DNA of 64,000 bases from Solirhodobacter olei (GTDB lineage: Bacteria > Pseudomonadota > Alphaproteobacteria > Rhodobacterales > Rhodobacteraceae), in assembly GCF_004010155.1 (NCBI RefSeq), contig NZ_RRYH01000012.1, positions 124,001-188,000 on the forward strand, given 5' to 3'. Position numbers and translations under genes: made by a program. The notes beneath the pieces were generated by a model that had not been told where the DNA came from, ran no database searches, and saw nothing but the letters and a program-made list of their open reading frames with translations. Every line of letters starts with the position of its first letter. Position 1 is the first letter of the stretch. Positions 6,221 to 58,043 of this stretch are shown here, piece after piece.

Positions 6221-7051
6221 ATGGCGGACCGCACGATCCTGATCACCGGCTGTTCCTCCGGCATCGGCTACGACGCCGCCCGCGGGCTGAAGGCTCGGGG
6301 CTGGCGGGTCTTCGCGACCTGCCGAAAGCCGGAAGACTGCACACGGCTTCAGGCCGAGGGGCTGGAAAGCCTGCCTCTCGACCTCGCCGACCCCGAAAGC
6401 ATCGCCGCAGCGGTGGAAGAGGTGCTTTCGCGCACGGGTGGCACGCTCGACGCGCTCTACAACAACGGCGCCTTTGCCTGCCCCGGCGCGGTGGAGGACC
6501 TGCCGCGCGGCGCGCTTGCCGAGATCTTCGAGACCAACGTCTTCGGCACCCACGACCTGACCCGCCGGATCATCCCGGTGATGCGGGCGCAAGGGCACGG
6601 CCGGATCGTCACCTGCTCCTCCGTCCTCGGGCTTGTCGGCGCGCGCTGGCGGGGGGCCTATGTGGCGACGAAATTCGCCCTCGAAGGGCTGACCGACGTG
6701 ATGCGGATCGAGATGCGCGACACGCCCCTGAAATTCATCCTGATCGAGCCGGGGCCGGTCACCTCCAGGATCCGCGTCAACGCGATCCCCCATTTCGAAC
6801 GCTGGGTGAACTGGCAGGCCTCGCCCCGCGCCGGCCAGTACCGCGATCAGCTGAGGAAACGGCTTTACGAGGACAGGGGGCCAGACCCGTTCGAGCTTCC
6901 CGCCGCCGCCGTGACCCGCAAGCTTGTCCATGCGCTGGAAAGTGCGCGGCCGCGGGCGCGCTATTACGTCACCACGCCGACCTACCTGATGGGTGCGCTC
7001 AGGCGGATCCTGCCGACATCGGCACTCGACTGGCTGATCGCCAAGGGCTGA
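6221..7051 (+). CDS. Short-chain dehydrogenase/reductase (SDR)
   Basis: A classical NAD(P)-dependent SDR of 276 residues. The cofactor motif TGCSSGIG lies at residues 9-16, the structural NNG-type motif is in YNNGAF, and the catalytic Ser (TCSSVLG), Tyr147 and Lys151 (YVATK) are all present. An Arg (CRKPED) after the second strand suggests NADP preference, which is inference. The C-terminal part is longer than in minimal SDRs and resembles members acting on lipid or steroid-like substrates, but the substrate is not known. The ATG follows GCGGAGGACGC with a GGAGG ribosome site. It is divergent from parC and followed 88 bases later by a HIG1-type membrane protein. Confidence 0.88.
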
Positions 7052-7139
7052 AATCCGCCCGCTGCGCCGACCCGCCGCAGCAGTTTCCGGTTCGCTTTTG
7101 CCCGCCGTCGCGATAGGGATGGCCAAGGGGGGCCTTGCC

Positions 7140-7337
7140 ATGTTCCACGATCCGCTCTTCATCCTCGTCGTCATTGCCGTGCTGGTCACGCTCTTCATCC
7201 TGATGCTCGGGATCGGCAGCTTCGGCTTCGGCGGCAAGTTCCACGCAAACAACGCCAACCGGCTGATGCGATACCGTATCGCGGCGCAGGCGGTCGCCAT
7301 CCTCTGCATCCTCATCTTCGTATATTTCCGGCGCTGA
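7140..7337 (+). CDS. Twin transmembrane protein with HIG1-like domain
   Basis: A 65-residue protein with two membrane segments: the first at about residues 4-28 and the second at the C-terminus (QAVAILCILIFVYF). They are joined by a polar loop that includes the FGGKFHANNANRLMRYR stretch typical of small HIG1-like proteins. In mitochondria, HIG1 proteins associate with respiratory supercomplexes; the bacterial role is less clear. The ATG at 7140 is preferred because AAGGGGGG sits about eight bases upstream; an in-frame ATG at 7119 would add seven residues. The adenosyltransferase gene begins two bases after its stop, so the two are very probably co-transcribed. Confidence 0.8.
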   Translation: MFHDPLFILVVIAVLVTLFILMLGIGSFGFGGKFHANNANRLMRYRIAAQAVAILCILIFVYFRR

Positions 7338-8804: not shown

Positions 8805-9730
8805 TGGCCGTTCTTCTTCTGGGCGAAGTGACCGACGGCACGCTTTCGGTCGATGCCACCGCCAAGACCGTCAACGCCGTCAAGGCCCTGGGCGATATCA
8901 CCGTGCTCTGCGCCGGCGCCCATGCCGCCGAGGCCGCCGCCGAGGCCGCGAAGATCGCGGGCGTGGCCAAGGTGCTCTGCGCCGAGGATGCCTCGCTCGG
9001 GCACCGGCTGGCGGAACCCACCGCGGCGCTGGTCGTGGGCCTCGCCTCCGGCTACAGCCACATCGTGGCGCCGGCGACGACCGACGCCAAGAACGTGCTG
9101 CCGCGCGTCGCGGCACTTCTGGACGTGATGGTGATCTCGGACGTCTCCGGCGTCGACGACGCCGAGACCTTCGAACGCCCGATCTACGCCGGCAACGCGG
9201 TCCAGACGGTGAAATCGTCCGACCCGATCAAGGTCGTCTCGATCCGTACCTCGGCCTTCGACGCGGCTCCTATGGGCGGCTCCGCGCCGGTGGAGACGAT
9301 CTCCGCCGCCGCCGACCCGGGCCTGTCGAACTGGGTGGAAGACAAGGTCGCCGCCTCCGACCGGCCAGAGCTGACTTCGGCCAAGATCGTCGTCTCCGGC
9401 GGCCGCGGCGTCGGCTCCGAAGCCGATTTCGCGCTGATCGAGAAGCTGGCCGACAAGCTCGGCGCAGCCGTGGGCGCCTCGCGCGCGGCAGTCGATTCGG
9501 GGTTTGCCCCGAACGACTGGCAGGTCGGACAGACCGGCAAGGTCGTGGCGCCGGACCTCTACGTCGCCGTCGGCATCTCGGGCGCGATCCAGCACCTCGC
9601 CGGGATGAAGGACTCCAAGGTCATCGTCGCCATCAACAAGGACGAAGAGGCGCCGATCTTCCAGGTCGCCGATTACGGCCTCGTCGCCGACCTTTTCCAG
9701 GCCGTGCCGGAGCTGACCGACAAGCTCTGA
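8804..9730 (+). CDS. etfA: Electron transfer flavoprotein alpha subunit
   Basis: EtfA carries the FAD of the ETF heterodimer. The 308-residue protein has an N-terminal domain that packs against EtfB and a C-terminal FAD domain. The FAD domain contains the [13 protein letters not shown] motif, the [21 protein letters not shown] stretch and the [24 protein letters not shown] signature. It is coupled to etfB by a one-base overlap and is followed by a strong hairpin at 9755-9780. In many relatives hbdA follows directly, but here a polysaccharide module intervenes. Confidence 0.96.
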
Positions 9731-9754
9731 GGCCCCCGCCTCCACAAGACCCCG

Positions 9755-9780
9755 GAAGGCCCGCCCCCGCGCGGGCCTTC
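9755..9780. terminator. Hairpin between etfA and the EPS module
   Basis: A perfect 10-base inverted repeat, GAAGGCCCGC at 9755-9764 and GCGGGCCTTC at 9771-9780, has a six-base loop. It lies between the convergent stops of etfA and the EPS kinase gene and can terminate from both sides. The T-tract is weak, so rho independence is probable but not certain. Confidence 0.75.
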
Positions 9781-9793
9781 TGCCATAAGGGCC

Positions 9794-10657
9794 TCAGGCC
9801 TTGGTCAGAACGAGCCCGGCGACCGCGGTGATCGCGGCCACCGCGCGCTCCGTCGCGTCGACCTCCTGCACCGTGGCGCGGTTTGCCTCCACCAGGATAA
9901 GCGCCGCATCGGCCAGCGCCAGCGCCGCCTCCGCCTCCAGCCCGGCGTCCAGCGGGGCGGCATCCATCAGGATCAGATCCGGCGCATAGGCAAGATCCAT
10001 CGCCGCAAGCGCCTGCCCGGCCGAAGGGGCACCCAGCAGATCCGCCGGGCTCGCCCGCCCCGAGGCCGCGAGGCCGAAGGCCACGCCGCCCCCGAAACGG
10101 CGCGCAGCGGCCGCGAAGGGCGCCCGGCCCTCCAGCACCTCGGCAAGCCCGCTCGCCATGCCGGTGACCGGGCTCTGGCCCAGAAGCCGCCCCAGCCCCG
10201 GCGCCCGCAGGTCGAGGTCGAGCGCGATCAGCCGCACACCGGGCGCACGGGCGAAGGAGAAGGCGAGGTTGGCCAGCGCCGTCGTCCGCCCGGTCCCGGC
10301 CGCGGCCGAGACCAGCGCGATGCGGCGCCAGCCATTGCGCCGCGCCTCCTCGGCCAGCCGGGCGCGCAGCAGGTCCCAGGGCGCCGCAGCGCGCCCGCCC
10401 TCGCGGCTCACGACGCGCAGGCGCTGAAGCCGGGCCGGGTCCGGGTCGATCGGTGACAGCCCGTGCCAGGCAAGCGATATCGCGCCGCGCGGCGCCGGCC
10501 CTGCCCCGGTCTGCGCCACCGCTGCGGCACTCGGCACCAGCCGGGGGCGCGGCCAGGCCCCGGCTGGTGCGGTCTGCTCCCCGGCCCCGCCTGAGGGTTC
10601 GGACCCGGCTGTGCGCTGGCGGCGCGCCTTTTCCAACGCCTGTTGCAGATAATCCAT
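9794..10657 (-). CDS. CpsD/CapB-like polysaccharide P-loop ATPase (degenerate BY-kinase)
   Basis: The protein resembles bacterial tyrosine kinases that control polysaccharide chain length through a Wzz partner. The 287 residues open with [12 protein letters not shown], a common start in this family. The Walker A region reads AGTGRTT at 120-126, with Arg124 where the catalytic Lys is expected. Walker A' is present in LDLDLRAPG (146-154) and Walker B in LILMDAAP. There is no C-terminal tyrosine cluster, so autophosphorylation of the classical kind is unlikely. The Wzz-like gene ends nine bases upstream of its start, indicating one transcription unit. It may be an inactive or regulatory ATPase rather than a kinase. 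Confidence 0.78.
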
Positions 10658-10665
10658 CCAGCCCC

Positions 10666-11979
10666 CTAGCCTGCAAGATCGCGTAGCCGCGCAAGCATCA
10701 GCCCGGCGTCGAGCCGCAGCCCGCCCCCGGCGGGCGAGACCGCCAGCAGACCGAGGCCCAGCACCGCCCCGGCCACAAGCCCCGCCCCGATGCCGCCGGT
10801 CAGGATCAGCCGCCGCCGTGGCGCCACCGGATCACTGGGCACTTCGGGGGGCGAGACCACCTCCAGCCTTTCGCCGCCTGCGGACAGCGCGATCCGCTCC
10901 GCCCGCCGCGCGGCATCGCGCTTCTCCACCGCCGCGCGGTAACGCTGGCGCAGGGCCGCCCCGTCGCGGTCGAACGCCTCGAGCGCCAGCGCATTGGCCG
11001 GAATGTCGGCCAGCGCCCGCTCCCGCGCGGTGATCTGCCGGCCGAGTTCGGCGCTCCGGGCGGCGCGCGCCGCCGGACCGGATGCCGGATCGGGCCGGCT
11101 GCGGCTGTCGGCCAGGCGTTCCGCCTCCACCGCCCGGCGCAGCGCGGCGACCCGGGTTGCGATCAACACCACCCGAGGATTTCGTTCGGAATATAGCGCC
11201 CGGGCCTGCGCCAAGTGGGTCTCTGCCGCGGCGAGCTGCCGGGTCGCCTCCGTTTGCGAAGGTGGAGCGGCCGGGCGTGGCGCGGGTTGGTTCAACGCGT
11301 CCTGCCGGGCGCGCAGATCGGCCAGATCGGCCTCCAGCCGGCTGCGGTTCTCCGGCAGCGCCAGCCGATGGGCGCGGCGGAAGGCCAGCACCTCCTTCGC
11401 CTGCCCGTCGAGCGCGGCGCCGGCACGCGTAACCTCACGCCCGAAGAAAGCCACCGCCGCCTGCGAAGACGCAATCCGCTGCTGCCGGTCTTCCTCCAGA
11501 AGCCGCGAGAGAAGGGCCCTCACGACGCCCGCCGCCAGCGCCGGGCTGCGCGCACGAAAGCCGATTTCCAGAAGCGGGGCCTGGTCGCGCCCCGACCGCG
11601 CGGTGATCCGCGTGGCCCGGGCCATCGCCGCGGCGATCCGGTCGGGCGACATTCTGCGCTGAGGCGGGAAAACCCCGACCTCATGCGCGACCGCAAGCAG
11701 GGTTTCCCGCGCCAGAAGCCGCTCCCGGTAAAGCTGCAACTGGCCAGGCGCCGGCACGGCTGCGCGCCGATCGTCGCCAAGCTCTGGCGCGACGAGGGTA
11801 ACCTGTGCCTGCGCCGCGTAGACCGGCGGCAGATGCCGCACGGCCAGCACAGCGAGGCCCGCGATCACCGACGCCACCGCCAGGGCCAGCGGCAGCCGCC
11901 GCAGCGCCCGCCCGGCCCAATAGGCCCGGGCGCTGCGCCTGGCCGGGCCCGGGCCGGCGATCGTACGAGCGGCTGCCAT
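10666..11979 (-). CDS. Wzz-like chain-length determinant / polysaccharide co-polymerase
   Basis: A 437-residue inner-membrane protein with one membrane segment at about residues 28-48 and a second near 395-418 (LILTGGIGAGLVAGAVLG). Between them is a long periplasmic domain rich in Ala, Arg, Glu and Leu that should form coiled coils. This is the PCP/Wzz layout that sets polymer length. The QAQVTLVAPELG segment after the first helix matches the start of the Wzz domain. The start at 11979 is chosen because its ATG shares one base with the TGA of the upstream ATPase gene; the same frame stays open to 13008, but that extension overlaps the ATPase and is a shadow. The kinase-like gene follows after eight bases. 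Confidence 0.84.
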   Translation of the reverse strand: MAAARTIAGPGPARRSARAYWAGRALRRLPLALAVASVIAGLAVLAVRHLPPVYAAQAQVTLVAPELGDDRRAAVPAPGQLQLYRERLLARETLLAVAHEVGVFPPQRRMSPDRIAAAMARATRITARSGRDQAPLLEIGFRARSPALAAGVVRALLSRLLEEDRQQRIASSQAAVAFFGREVTRAGAALDGQAKEVLAFRRAHRLALPENRSRLEADLADLRARQDALNQPAPRPAAPPSQTEATRQLAAAETHLAQARALYSERNPRVVLIATRVAALRRAVEAERLADSRSRPDPASGPAARAARSAELGRQITARERALADIPANALALEAFDRDGAALRQRYRAAVEKRDAARRAERIALSAGGERLEVVSPPEVPSDPVAPRRRLILTGGIGAGLVAGAVLGLGLLAVSPAGGGLRLDAGLMLARLRDLAG

Positions 11980-24602: not shown

Positions 24603-24917
24603 CTTCGCTCTCCATCCGTGCCGGCCCAGCCGAGCCCGGCGCAGACCTTACCACGCAACCTCTCGGTGAACAGCCGCAATGCCATCTTCTCGCCACAGTC
24701 CCCGCCGGACTGTGGCGCTTGGGCGACCGCGGATGACACGTCACGCCGCCTGTCGCTGCCGGGTCTGCCACAGGGGCCCGGACTGCGGCAACGGCGGGGC
24801 CGGCAGCCCGACCCTATGGTTTCTCATAGATTGCGCGCGGCCATCACGGCGTCGTGAAATGCCCGTGATCGGTCCGCTCGGGCGGGTCGGGAAACCTCTC
24901 AACAGCAGGGCACACTG
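24603..24917. other. Intergenic region before the surface lipoprotein
   Basis: This 315-base region lies between the divergent P450 and lipoprotein genes. I see no tRNA, small coding frame with a ribosome site, or clear palindrome. It must hold the promoter(s) of one or both genes, but no convincing -35/-10 pair can be named. Confidence 0.5.
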
Positions 24918-25538
24918 ATGGACACCAAATTCGCGCTCGTCGCACTCACCACCTGTTTCGCGCTGTCGGCCTGTGGCGGCGGCGGCAGCAGCACCGGCAG
25001 CAGCACCGGAGGCACCACCGCGGCGCTGTCCTCGGCAGAGGCGCAATCCGTGGCCACCACCTACACGGACTACCAGAACCGCATCAAGGACGGTTCGCTG
25101 ACCGAGACCACCCCGACCGGGAAGGCCTCCATGGCAGGCTATCTCGGCATCGACAACGTCAGCACCGACAACCCCGACCTGTCCGCGTTGGGCAAGCTGG
25201 CGATGGATGTCGATTTCGACGCCGGCAAGCTGAGCGGCACGGCCTCTGACTTCGGGGTCTACACGGGCACCGCCAGCGAGAAGACGGATATCAACGTCAC
25301 CGGCTCGCTGGATGTCACGGGCACGGTCTCGGGCTCCGCGCTCTCGGCCACCGCCTCCGGCACGGTGTCCGACGGCACGACGCCCTCGGACCTCAACCTG
25401 AACATGACCGGCAAGTTCTATGACGACTCCGGCACGCTGACCGCGGTCGGCACTCACACCGGGACGATGAAGGACCACGGCGCGAGCGACTCAAGTGCCT
25501 GGAACGTCGATGGCGGCTTCTACGCCACCAAGCAATAA
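24918..25538 (+). CDS. TbpB-like surface lipoprotein, probable Slam substrate
   Basis: A 206-residue lipoprotein. The lipobox LSAC puts the lipidated Cys at residue 19. A Gly/Ser/Thr linker follows (GGGGSSTGSST and on), as in surface-exposed lipoproteins tethered to the outer membrane. The C-terminal half is a run of short beta strands with Thr/Ser/Gly repeats (LSGTASDFGVYTGTASEK, then VTGTVSGSALSATASGTV) ending DGGFYATKQ. This resembles the TbpB-type lipoprotein barrel of Slam-dependent proteins. A Slam-like gene follows after 135 bases. Iron-protein binding cannot be claimed; the ligand is unknown. The ATG has a CAGGG-like site upstream. Confidence 0.8.
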   Translation: MDTKFALVALTTCFALSACGGGGSSTGSSTGGTTAALSSAEAQSVATTYTDYQNRIKDGSLTETTPTGKASMAGYLGIDNVSTDNPDLSALGKLAMDVDFDAGKLSGTASDFGVYTGTASEKTDINVTGSLDVTGTVSGSALSATASGTVSDGTTPSDLNLNMTGKFYDDSGTLTAVGTHTGTMKDHGASDSSAWNVDGGFYATKQ

Positions 25539-25562
25539 GCCGGCACCTCCACCGGTTCGGGG

Positions 25563-25581
25563 CCGGGGGCCATGCCCCCGG
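25563..25581 (+). promoter_or_regulatory. Intercistronic hairpin between lipoprotein and Slam genes
   Basis: CCGGGGGC at 25563-25570 pairs with GCCCCCGG at 25574-25581 across a three-base loop, 25 bases after the lipoprotein stop and 92 before the Slam start. No T-tract follows, so it looks more like an mRNA-stabilising or attenuating hairpin than a full terminator. It could make the lipoprotein more abundant than its translocon. Confidence 0.5.
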
Positions 25582-25673
25582 TCTTCGCAGGCGCGGGATG
25601 CCGTTTCCCCCATCCCGCGCCGCCCCCCGATCCGCCCTGCCCCAATCCGCGCCCCGGAAAGCTGCGACGCGCC

Positions 25674-26957
25674 ATGCGCCTATTCTCTCCGCTCATCGCG
25701 GCCGTCCTCGCGGCTGGCCCGCTTTCCGGCCTCGCCGGTTCCGGATCGGCCCACGCCGGCACGGTGGCCCCGGCGGCAGGCCAGGCCCAGCCCGGAGGCA
25801 AGGCCAGCCCCGAGACCGCCCCGCGCACCGTCGCCGACTGGATCGCGCTCGGCGACCGGCAGATCTCCCAGGGCCGTGCCGCTGCGGCAGTTCTGATCTT
25901 CGGCGCCGTCGCGGCGCGCCAGCCGGATTACCCCCCGGCCCAGGAGGGCCTGGACAGGGCCTTCGCCCGCTTCGGCCCGGTCGGCCGCGCCGAGGGCTTC
26001 CTGCGCTACGCCCTTGCCGAGGATCCGGCACGGGAGCGCGCGCTTCTCGCCGCCTGGCAGGCGCTCGACCGGGCGCATCCGCTGCGCTTCTCCGGCTCGG
26101 CCTCGATCCTGCCCAGCAGTAACGTCGACCACGTCGCCTCCGAACGCTACCTGGTCACCGATTTCGGCACCTTCCTGATCGACGGCGGTGGGCAGGAAAG
26201 CACGGGCGTCGGCCTCGGCTATTCGCCGGGCGTCGACTACATCCTTCATTCCCGGCCCGGCGCGCGGGTCCGGCTGCATGCGGACTACGCCGGTGCCTGG
26301 TTCGACGCCGCCCCGCTGCGCTATGGCGAGCCGAGCCTCGGGATCACCTACGAAAGGCTCGGAGGCCGGGCACCCTGGTCGCTGGAGGCCTTCGCGAGCC
26401 GGCGCCGCTACGGCGGCACGGGTCAGGTGGTCACCGCCGACAACACCGCGCGCGGGCTTGAGCTGCGCAAGGCCTGGCGGCCGGGGCGCGGCGGACGCGT
26501 GCTGCTGGACCTCGGCGCGGTCTACCGGCGCTACTCCGAAAAGCCCTATCTGACCGGCCCGACCTATGACCTCGACCTGTCCCGGATCCGGCCAGTGGCC
26601 GCGCATGGCCGGATCAGCTACGGGCTGCACCTGCAACGCGGCCGGCCACGCAAGAACTACCACCGCTATTCCGGGGTCGAGCTGCGCGTCGGCTACGCGC
26701 GTCCGGTCGTGCCGGACCTGCAGCTTTCGGTCACGCTGGGGCTGGGGCAGCGGCTCTACGACACCGCCTTCCCGATCGTCGGAGAGCGGCGGCGCGACCG
26801 CACCCTCAGCCTGGGCATCGGGGCGAAACTCAGCCGCCTGAAGATCTTCGGCCGCACGCCGCGCCTGAGCTGCACGGCCTGGCGGACCCGTTCGAACATC
26901 GCGCTCTACACCATCGGCTCGGTCGATTGCGCAATGACGCTAACGCTTGATTTCTAA
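25674..26957 (+). CDS. Slam-type surface lipoprotein assembly modifier
   Basis: Slam proteins move lipoproteins across the outer membrane to the cell surface. The 427-residue product has a signal peptide (cleavage near HAG-TVA, about 28) and an N-terminal helical TPR-like domain (about 45-145, with LGDRQISQGRAAAAVLIF and FLRYALAEDPARERALLAAW). A C-terminal barrel of about 280 residues begins at LRFSGSASILPSSNVDHVASER and ends in a terminal Phe (MTLTLDF), as outer-membrane barrels do. This layout and the SILPSSN motif match DUF560/Slam. The lipoprotein gene immediately upstream is the natural client. The start has a poor ribosome site (GGAAAG, 13 bases away), so the exact N-terminus is less sure. 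Confidence 0.8.
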   Translation: MRLFSPLIAAVLAAGPLSGLAGSGSAHAGTVAPAAGQAQPGGKASPETAPRTVADWIALGDRQISQGRAAAAVLIFGAVAARQPDYPPAQEGLDRAFARFGPVGRAEGFLRYALAEDPARERALLAAWQALDRAHPLRFSGSASILPSSNVDHVASERYLVTDFGTFLIDGGGQESTGVGLGYSPGVDYILHSRPGARVRLHADYAGAWFDAAPLRYGEPSLGITYERLGGRAPWSLEAFASRRRYGGTGQVVTADNTARGLELRKAWRPGRGGRVLLDLGAVYRRYSEKPYLTGPTYDLDLSRIRPVAAHGRISYGLHLQRGRPRKNYHRYSGVELRVGYARPVVPDLQLSVTLGLGQRLYDTAFPIVGERRRDRTLSLGIGAKLSRLKIFGRTPRLSCTAWRTRSNIALYTIGSVDCAMTLTLDF

Positions 26958-27155: not shown

Positions 27156-28247
27156 ATGAACGGCCCGCTGTCGCATCACGACATCTATGATGCCGCGCTC
27201 GACGACACGCTCTTCGACGCGCTGCCGGTCTGGATGGCGCGCGAGATCGACGTACCCTCGGCGGTCTTCATCTGGCTGCACCCCGGCGACTACCGCGAGA
27301 TCACCGCCGGCACCCAGGCCGAGGCCAACGAGGTCTATAACGACTTCGAGGGCCACGATCCCTGGCTGGCTCAGGCGACCGACGACAAGTTTGGCATCGG
27401 CGCGTTCCGGCTGTCGGACAGCGTCTCGGCCCGCGAGTTCGAGCGCAGCGAGATGTACAACGCCTTCATCCGAGAGAACCGGCTGGACCGCTACTGGTGC
27501 CTCGGCATGATGCACGGCACCCGCGATGGCCGGGTGGCCACGGCCTTTCACAAGTCCCGCCGGGGCGGGGATTTCACCGATGCCGAGCACCGCTCCATCA
27601 ACCGCCATGCCGAGGATCTCGGCCGGCTCCACACGATCCGGCGCGAGCTGCACCGCAACCGCATCCGCGACATCGTCGCCGCCGACAACAGCCTGATCGA
27701 CGACACGCCGGTGTTCGAGCTCGACCACCAGGGCCGCCTCTTGCGCCTGAACGGCAAGGCGGAGCTGCTGGTTCGCCTGCATCCGGCGCTGGCGGTCGAT
27801 GCCCGGCGCGTGCTGAAGACCCAGGGCCGCGGAGAGCGCGGCTTCCGCGCCGCGGTCGGGGCAGCGACCGAAGCCGTGCGGCGCCGCGCCGGCGCGGTGG
27901 AACTCGGCCCGGCGCGGGCGGAGGACGGGCGCCTGATCCCAGCGCTGCGGCTGAATTTCCTGCCCCGCACCGAGGGCGGGCGGAAGGTGCTGGTGATCGC
28001 CACGACAGAGGCCGAGGGCGGGCTGCAGGCGCTCTTCGACGCGCCACTGGAAAGCGTGCGCCTCACCCCGCGCGAGCGCGACGTGCTGCACGGGCTGATG
28101 CGTGGGCTGCGGCGCGACCAGCTCGCCCACGACCTCGACCTGGCGGTGCCGACGATCGACCTGCACAGCACCAACCTGGGCCTCAAGCTCGGCGCCCGTA
28201 CCATCGCCGAGGCGGTGGCGCTTTCGCTGAAGTTCGGCCTGCTCTGA
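27156..28247 (+). CDS. LuxR-type helix-turn-helix regulator
   Basis: A 363-residue regulator with a C-terminal LuxR/GerE DNA-binding domain at about 303-356. LTPRERDVLHGLMRG begins it, and the QLAHDLDLAVPTIDLHSTNLGLKLG recognition helix follows. The N-terminal 190 residues lack receiver motifs and do not show the acyl-homoserine-lactone contact pattern clearly; they look like a GAF/PAS-like sensor. It is 198 bases after the Slam gene on the same strand and could control it, but that is inference. The ATG at 27156 fits the domain start. No luxI-type synthase lies nearby. Confidence 0.82.
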   Translation: MNGPLSHHDIYDAALDDTLFDALPVWMAREIDVPSAVFIWLHPGDYREITAGTQAEANEVYNDFEGHDPWLAQATDDKFGIGAFRLSDSVSAREFERSEMYNAFIRENRLDRYWCLGMMHGTRDGRVATAFHKSRRGGDFTDAEHRSINRHAEDLGRLHTIRRELHRNRIRDIVAADNSLIDDTPVFELDHQGRLLRLNGKAELLVRLHPALAVDARRVLKTQGRGERGFRAAVGAATEAVRRRAGAVELGPARAEDGRLIPALRLNFLPRTEGGRKVLVIATTEAEGGLQALFDAPLESVRLTPRERDVLHGLMRGLRRDQLAHDLDLAVPTIDLHSTNLGLKLGARTIAEAVALSLKFGLL

Positions 28248-57317: not shown

Positions 57318-58043
57318 ATGGAATGGCGCGACGAAGGCGTCCTGCTGTCGGCCCGCGGCCACGGCGAAAGCGCCGCGATCATCGAAGTCTTCACGGCCGG
57401 CCACGGCCGCCACGCCGGCGTCGTGCGCGGCGGCGGCTCGCGCCGCATCGCCCCGATCCTGCAGCCCGGCGCCCAGCTTTCGCTGGCCTGGCGCGCCCGG
57501 CTCGACGCCCATATCGGCGCCTTCACGGTCGAACCGATCCGCAGCCGCGCCGGCGCGATCCTGTCGGACCGGCTGGCGCTGGCGGGGCTGAATTCCACCG
57601 CCGCGCTGCTTGCCTTCACCCTGCCGGAACGCGAGCCGCACCCCGATCTCTACGCCGCCTCCCTTGCGCTTTTCGACGCGCTGGCAGAGGGGTCCGACTG
57701 GCCGCTCCTCTACCTGCGGTGGGAGCTTAACCTATTGGAAGAAATGGGTTTCGGCCTTGATCTCGGCAGTTGCGCGCTGACCGGCAGCCGCGAGGATCTG
57801 GCCTATGTCAGCCCCCGCTCCGGCCGCGCCGTCAGCCGCGGGGCGGCGGGGGAATGGGCAGATCGGCTTCTGCCGCTGCCCCCCGCGCTTCTCGGCCAGG
57901 GCCCGGCCAGCGCGGCAGAGATCGCGGCCGGCCTGCGCCTGACCGGCCATTTTCTCGAGAACCACCTCGCCCCGGAACTCGGCCATCGCCCGCTGCCCGA
58001 GGCGCGGCGCCGGCTGGTGGCGCTGCTGTCCCGCACCGCCTGA
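57318..58043 (+). CDS. recO: DNA repair protein RecO
   Basis: RecO helps load RecA onto SSB-coated DNA in the RecFOR pathway. The 241-residue protein has the N-terminal OB-fold start [26 protein letters not shown] and [10 protein letters not shown]. The helical C-domain contains [22 protein letters not shown] and [12 protein letters not shown]. The zinc-type Cys motif is reduced, as usual in alphaproteobacterial RecO. In relatives it follows era and DUF1491; here these lie about 5 kb downstream on the opposite strand, so the locus is rearranged. Confidence 0.9.

Follow-up and report, generated by a model that had tools for sequence, protein, structure and literature searches.

The Cargo, Slam, and LuxR-Type Genes of Solirhodobacter olei

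The locus described here lies on contig NZ_RRYH01000012.1 of Solirhodobacter olei (assembly GCF_004010155.1), in a stretch of 64,000 nucleotides that was analyzed as a whole and is called the window below; all coordinates are positions in it. Three genes follow one another on the forward strand, encoding a lipoprotein of 206 amino acids (24918–25538, the cargo), a Slam (SlipAM/DUF560) translocon of 427 amino acids (25674–26957) and a LuxR-type regulator of 363 amino acids (27156–28247). An operator-like dyad, CCTATGGTTTCTCATAGA (24813–24830), which reads CCTAT-N8-ATAGG with one mismatch, begins 105 nt 5′ of the cargo ATG. An earlier note made from the letters of the window had described the first two genes as a TbpB-like surface lipoprotein paired with its own Slam, and this interpretation of the locus is supported overall; from there it could not see that the LuxR gene is conserved with the module, or the likely operator before the cargo.

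The cargo carries a lipobox (LSAC, with Cys19 assigned by eye) and then a Gly/Ser/Thr linker, in the open reading frame (ORF) where the earlier note had placed them, and the lipobox cysteine is invariant in all 14 rows of the cargo alignment. The TbpB-type beta domain proposed for it is supported by profile and predicted fold. As a single sequence the cargo scored 22.2 bits against PF01298 (TbpB_B_D), below the cut-off of 26, phmmer with the same sequence found no relative among solved structures, and an NCBIfam scan returned nothing specific for either the cargo or the Slam, whereas a profile of the 14 aligned rows matched the LbpB C-lobe (E 1.9e-5), followed by NHBA (0.01) and TbpB (0.1). 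The AlphaFold2 (AF2) model built from six sequences (pLDDT 82, pTM 0.77) consists of a disordered N-terminus, one helix (residues 39–58) and an eight- or nine-stranded barrel (69–205), in agreement with the suggested beta domain; it contains no handle, pedestal or N-lobe domain. Handle and pedestal domains are described for cargos of the type 11 secretion system (T11SS) in PMC12282271. Structural comparison with VIA-align ranked NHBA first (Z 12.2, covering 126 residues at 18% identity), ahead of TbpB (11.5), LbpB (11.2), HphA (11.1) and fHbp (11.0), and also found a resemblance to haemophilin; with Foldseek, NHBA was again best (E 1.4e-3), biotin-binding avidins being close behind. The mature cargo has 188 amino acids in the window and 164–180 in three relatives. 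Predicted fold and sequence profile together support the cargo as a homolog of known Slam cargo barrels, and a cargo so small and reduced to its barrel would be a useful minimal substrate for asking what Slam recognizes.

The identification of the following protein as a Slam was borne out by its match to PF04575 (SlipAM; 33 bits against a cut-off of 22, E 5.8e-8). The longest frame spans 25572–26957 (461 amino acids); the likely true start is 25674, which matches the starts of orthologs in alignment and leaves a gap of 135 nt after the cargo stop. From that start the predicted parts are a signal peptide, a TPR-like helical domain and a barrel ending in Phe. The AF2 model (pLDDT 76.8) shows five helices (53–134), about 15 longer strands and a terminal Phe, and a Slam profile searched against the sequences of solved structures matched TPR chains, supporting the TPR-like character of the helical part. 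Model and profile thus agree with the two-part architecture foreseen earlier, a TPR-like domain and then an outer-membrane barrel. Among the top Foldseek matches of the model are OmpG, PelB and BcsC, the latter two exporters; no solved Slam structure was among the matches listed, from which no absence can be concluded. Profile and predicted fold confirm the product of 25674–26957 as a Slam, that is, a T11SS outer-membrane protein.

Conservation of the Cargo–Slam Pair

We surveyed 394 genomes of the host’s bacterial family, in which the window Slam was matched in 45 (E ≤ 1e-5) and the window lipoprotein in 17 (E ≤ 1e-3). The two genes are adjacent in Thioclava marina (G254), with identities of 53% and 59%, and at about 30–35% identity in Pacificibacter maritimus (G260) and in the genome G042, while in a metagenome-assembled genome (MAG; G156) a contig ends at a Slam 59% identical to that of the window. 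A tree built from 108 Slams (the window and L187 included, the short Slam ORFs L154 and L200 excluded) places the window Slam with those of these four genomes (SH-aLRT 90) and outside the thyX/glyoxalase-linked clade; the published similarity network was not rerun. Because the same pair recurs in the same order in Thioclava and others, its pairing is not a matter of chance. A Slam at E < 1e-20 is present in 16 of the 17 genomes with a match to the window lipoprotein (the exception is G171), against 238 of the 394 overall.

The LuxR-Type Gene as a Partner of the Pair

The LuxR-type gene said to follow on the same strand encodes a C-terminal GerE domain (PF00196, 37.2 bits against a cut-off of 23.5, E 2.2e-9), and its N-terminal part of about 295 amino acids had no match in Pfam. 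Strong matches to this N-terminal part (64–100%) occur in four of the 394 genomes, the host included, and all of them adjoin a window-type Slam; the match in one more genome (G318) is weak (25%). Orthologs 65–70% identical to the window LuxR are located beside the cargo–Slam pair. A scan of named genomes yielded 13 LuxR loci (four from Thioclava, four from Pacificibacter, two from Alloyangia, and one each from a Paracoccaceae MAG, Pseudooceanicola and Celeribacter), five of which have an intact Slam and cargo beside the LuxR gene. These five are the four Thioclava, with cargo, Slam and LuxR in that order on one strand, and P. maritimus, with intact cargo and Slam on the strand opposite luxR. 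In the MAG locus (L213) a Slam alone adjoins LuxR and runs up to the contig end, and in two Pacificibacter marinus loci (L210, 2099–2443; L211, 7411–7785) decayed remnants of a Slam C-terminus, broken by stops and frame changes, lie just 5′ of luxR. The pattern over the 13 loci therefore indicates a LuxR–Slam link that is common to one LuxR branch and absent or lost elsewhere. The LuxR gene is a conserved partner of the cargo–Slam pair, newly recognized here, and not an exclusive one.

The genome G042 has no 363-residue LuxR; a 189-residue GerE protein is encoded nearby, with a nearly identical recognition helix (PTVDLH…NLRRKL), and the one aligned NarL-type regulator from another Slam locus differs from this type in its helix. 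In P. maritimus (L209), a trace of a Slam C-terminus was made out by eye 5′ of luxR.

An Operator-Like Dyad Before the Cargo Gene

Alignment of the regions upstream of the cargo gene in the window and the four Thioclava revealed a near-invariant block, and conservation in this alignment extends 3′ of the dyad into the leader. The exact core CTAT-N8-ATAG lies at 24814–24829 and is the sole exact copy in the window, which holds one more dyad site, at 57731, when up to one mismatch is allowed. With zero or one mismatch, CCTAT-N8-ATAGG starts −105 to −108 from the cargo ATG in all seven readable cargos of the clade (the window, four Thioclava, G042 and P. maritimus), and none of 400 random 160-mers matched as well. 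The dyad before the G042 cargo is perfect, and in Pacificibacter copies it is extended to GAACCTAT-N8-ATAGGTTC. In the MAG G156, where the cargo is unassembled, it stands on contig C126 with about 100 nt left to the contig end, which fits expectation if the cargo comes next. Among the Slam-adjacent cargos of the family-wide survey described below, three of the 79 scored have the dyad (two of 81 were unscorable), and these three are the fetched members of the window’s clade. Background in 1.28 Mb of locus sequence amounts to 14 dyad sites at up to one mismatch and, with further module copies removed, to one exact CTAT-N8-ATAG in 1,283,636 bases; the 12 sites of the dyad scan count the P. maritimus site twice (L132 and L209).

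The dyad also occurs upstream of luxR in both Alloyangia loci, 168 nt 5′ of the gene with no mismatch in L220 (equalled by 0 of 400 random 300-mers) and 192 nt 5′ with one mismatch in L215 (equalled by 6 of 400). There is no dyad at up to one mismatch within 300 nt 5′ of luxR in the window, Thioclava, Pacificibacter, L213, L216 (whose luxR start in the scan lay 3 nt off a start codon) or L219, and a motif search directly 5′ of luxR across all relatives gave no conserved lead. The dyad conserved before the cargo is a likely LuxR site, newly seen here, and we infer that these LuxR proteins bind it as a putative operator.

In Pacificibacter, a small ORF whose beginning resembles a signal sequence (IMISLSACLMATEASAF) lies just 3′ of another copy of the dyad (L211, about 6900–7230; L243, 1119–1427).

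A Probable Signal-Controlled Surface-Display Module

We consider it probable that the locus encodes a signal-controlled surface-display module, in which a barrel lipoprotein is displayed by Slam under LuxR-type control and does not serve as a TonB co-receptor. The reading builds on computed identities, predicted folds, conserved gene order, the conserved dyad and the lack of a TonB-receptor match, from which we infer translocation, LuxR binding, the sign of regulation and the ligand. The cargo would be exported by Sec, lipidated at Cys19 and brought to the outer membrane, where the neighboring Slam would recognize its barrel and pass it through the Slam pore, leaving it to hang on the cell surface by its lipid and the flexible Gly/Ser/Thr tether. 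Because handle, pedestal and N-lobe domains are all missing from the cargo model, the barrel, loops included, may be the effector itself, most likely one for binding a surface ligand or for adhesion. The LuxR protein encoded downstream would bind the dyad at 24813–24830, some 90–105 nt 5′ of the cargo ATG, and turn the cargo–Slam pair on or off, its N-terminal part sensing the signal that controls the switch. A more specific version, which we put forward tentatively as a minority possibility, is a feedback surface sensor, with LuxR acting essentially on one operon and the barrel loops binding the cue or partner cell that LuxR senses. If true, this would be a switchable surface-recognition device with a minimal, effector-free T11SS cargo, in a cell without TonB receptors.

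Several observations weigh against the proposed module. Generic eight-stranded barrels such as OmpX (Z 11.0) and OprF (10.8) score close to the Slam cargos in structural comparison, so that fold alone is insufficient to assign the family and the sequence profile decides. A genome of the same genus (G182) has an orphan cargo (E 1.3e-24, by profile only) and a best Slam at E 1.8e-7, which means that a cargo does not always imply a Slam. Five of the 13 named LuxR loci (L215, L216, L217, L219 and L220) have no detectable Slam nearby, by which an exclusive partnership of LuxR with Slam was ruled out, and in one of them, P. marinus L217, a TonB-dependent receptor gene (9627–11828, by Pfam) lies about 0.5 kb from luxR. 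The dyad at up to one mismatch was present upstream of luxR in two of 15 scored regions, both from Alloyangia. A nine-base form of the dyad gave 26 matches in six genomes against 44 for a backward control pattern, and two against eight in the host genome; with counts not above control, a genome-wide regulon defined by the bare dyad was ruled out. Few independent lineages stand behind the conservation, because the four Thioclava promoters are closely related, and the dyad includes TATAGT or TATGGT and could partly be a promoter −10 element.

On this last point a rather unlikely alternative can be built, in which Slam and cargo function as described while LuxR controls other targets and the dyad serves the cargo gene as a conserved part of its core promoter or leader. 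The −10-like TATAGT in the Thioclava dyad, the conservation that runs on 3′ into the leader, the upstream gap of about 200 nt that the window luxR has to itself, with no dyad in it, and the LuxR relatives located away from Slam would all agree with it. A mere promoter would not, however, be expected to keep both arms mostly intact while the hexamer changes (as in P. maritimus, CCTACAAGTTCCTATAGG), to recur 5′ of luxR in Alloyangia, where there is no Slam, or to be missing from the remaining scored Slam cargos.

Apparent Absence of TonB-Dependent Receptors

The surface-display module would differ from the best-studied Slam systems in its task. No match to the Plug domain (PF07715) or the receptor barrel (PF00593) was found anywhere in the host genome, which is rated 100% complete, each of the two models being positive in three of 14 control genomes; no TonB receptor domain was found among the neighboring window genes scanned. 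The earlier observation that no TonB receptor adjoins the pair therefore holds for the neighbors scanned and, by two Pfam models, genome-wide, and its suggestion that the task differs from TonB-coupled iron capture gains weight. Of five relatives searched with the Plug model, G156 has no TonB-dependent receptor and the other four contain one to three each.

A role in metal or haem capture like that of TbpB, LbpB or haemophilin, with the load passed to a receptor encoded elsewhere, is quite improbable in this light. The barrel is homologous to the LbpB C-lobe and similar in fold to HphA and haemophilin, T. marina, P. maritimus and G042 do encode TonB-dependent receptors, and in the Slam-less L217 such a gene adjoins luxR; yet in those three genomes over 100 kb separate the window-type Slam from the closest receptor gene on its contig, and the full features of a TbpB/LbpB co-receptor are not present here, the cargo model being a single helix and barrel with no handle or N-lobe and the host genome giving no match to a TonB-dependent receptor. 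Since no such receptor was found, a TbpB-like, TonB-coupled co-receptor role is unlikely in this host. The pairing of gate and cargo is of a known kind; the apparent genome-wide lack of a TonB receptor together with a predicted built-in switch is new.

Barrel Lipoproteins Beside Slam Across the Family

A Slam profile matched 351 of the 394 genomes at E ≤ 1e-6 and 238 at E < 1e-20 (hand-sorted), and Pfam at least 145. The 108 Slam loci that were fetched are mostly the best-scoring of a longer match list, with some added from the search with the window Slam, and form a non-random set in which several genomes are repeated; loci L183–L194 had been picked for their cargo and do not enter the pairing count, although L187 among them also holds a Slam. 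With adjacency defined as frames at most 600 nt apart on either strand, a profile grown from the window lipoprotein detected an adjacent barrel lipoprotein in 81 of the 108 loci; in 76 of these it is encoded 5′ of the Slam in the same orientation. By type, the 81 comprise 33 of 34 thyX-type loci, all 16 with a linked histidine kinase or NarL-type response regulator, three of four of the window type (a contig end truncates the fourth), 28 of 52 loci of other kinds and one of two unplaced. Two of the 108 loci end without upstream sequence at contig ends and 25 others are unpaired, among them L092, L100 and L122, where an adjacent lipobox ORF seen by eye was missed or scored weakly by the profile. 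Barrel queries, from which signal peptide and linker had been removed, together matched 80 of the 81 adjacent cargos; the window barrel alone matched 55 and no reversed decoy, and the thyX barrel matched one reversed decoy (E 3.9e-4). A strict lipobox is present in 77 of 86 window-barrel matches versus 54 of 2886 other ORFs.

PF01298 recognized 12 of 82 cargos (the 81 and that of the window) at E ≤ 1.5e-5, which is about its cut-off, and 25 at E ≤ 0.01. PMC12282271 reports TbpBBD at eight of 145 cluster 3 loci, 0.21 cargo per protein and, among 11 loci checked by hand, 10 with a cargo; for the dearth of marine T11SS cargo it offers three possible explanations, cargos that are rarely adjacent, too divergent or changed in function. 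Our counts, which come from a different set of loci, support divergence below the Pfam threshold. Gly-rich cargos prevail in the 16 Slam–cargo loci with a linked histidine kinase and NarL-type response regulator (e.g., L108, 7786–10041; L098, 9904–10629).

That the window lipoprotein is an ordinary periplasm-facing or secreted one beside a Slam-like porin without translocation activity is the least credible alternative, for which the single-sequence Pfam match below cut-off and orphan paralogs located well away from Slam genes (G182 having no convincing Slam at all) could be cited, but which fits poorly with lipoprotein–Slam adjacency in 81 of 108 loci and with a strong Slam in 16 of the 17 genomes that match the window lipoprotein.

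Surrounding Genes and Related Loci

Downstream of luxR follow two tRNA-Lys genes on the opposite strand, dapF, a radical-SAM gene, a cytochrome c gene and a gene for an FMN-binding protein. Upstream of the cargo a cytochrome P450 gene is divergently oriented; in T. marina it is not adjacent to the pair, and Trk potassium genes occupy that position. A GC-rich hairpin between cargo and Slam (25559–25584) could reduce Slam relative to cargo; RNA folding of the intergenic stretch around it gave a z of only −1.3. Promoter and terminator scans of the locus yielded no useful lead. A second Slam considered at 2–1396 was rejected, the profile match there (E 1.1e-15) being weak and scattered across barrel repeats, with no Pfam match; the ORF (5–1396), of 463 amino acids, beta-rich and truncated by the window start, resembles an outer-membrane barrel protein.

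Elsewhere in the host genome, a second Slam on contig C31 is surrounded by cargo, thyX and glyoxalase genes, and contig C36 encodes two more cargo-like lipoproteins. The latter belong to a recurrent arrangement (L224, 3985–8680, on C36 of the host, G000; L226, L191 and L193) of one to three orphan barrel lipoproteins between prfC (RF3) and a Hint_2 gene, followed by an SDR gene. Hint_2 was identified by Pfam in all four loci, prfC and SDR by Pfam in L224 and by eye elsewhere; no Slam was found in the fetched stretches, profile-tested for L191 and L193 only. L226 is the locus of the same-genus G182, with a cargo and no convincing Slam. In two genomes, tandem orphan barrel lipoproteins (L189, 5496–7495; L190, 4640–6624) lie beside a TspO gene (by Pfam) and also adjoin an oxidoreductase gene (by Pfam in L189; carotenoid-type by eye).

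Comparison With Known Systems

In structure, the window cargo is most like the C-terminal barrel of NHBA (GNA2132), its best match and likewise a small single-barrel domain; the matched piece of NHBA is the C-terminal domain of a larger protein. With the Slam1 and Slam2 systems that serve TbpB, LbpB, fHbp and HpuA (cluster 1A), the locus shares a lipoprotein with a C-terminal barrel, a TPR/barrel translocon and adjacency of the two genes, and for TbpB translocation by Slam has been shown (PMC9090332). It differs from them in a cargo of 206 amino acids with one barrel and a model that has no handle or N-lobe, in a host without a matched TonB receptor, and in a Slam that reaches only 33 bits in Pfam.

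Slam–cargo pairs, which the earlier note knew best from Neisseria and relatives, can no longer be regarded as mainly Neisserial, since T11SS pairs of Rhodobacteraceae and Roseobacteraceae are already described in PMC12282271. The marine cluster 3 systems of that source, with thyX, glyoxalase and DUF1194, come from the same family and also have a lipoprotein cargo next to the T11SS protein. In contrast to them, the window Slam falls in another tree clade, no thyX, glyoxalase or DUF1194 was found in the 12 neighboring window genes scanned, the mature cargo has 188 amino acids against a median of 315 for thyX-type cargos, and the pair has a LuxR partner. A literature search over titles and abstract openings, with subscription papers largely outside its reach, found no description of a LuxR–Slam–cargo module.

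A precedent for its regulation is NilB/NilC with the repressor NilR of Xenorhabdus nematophila, where a T11SS protein and its lipoprotein cargo are likewise under a dedicated transcription factor and detected surface exposure depends on regulation (PMC9100927), a case of regulated T11SS display. There, nilB and nilC each have a promoter of their own on which NilR and Lrp act, whereas in the window the regulator is of LuxR type and one dyad stands before the cargo. With the window, T11SS would gain a testable regulator–operator pair, from a host that seems unlikely to use TonB-coupled uptake.

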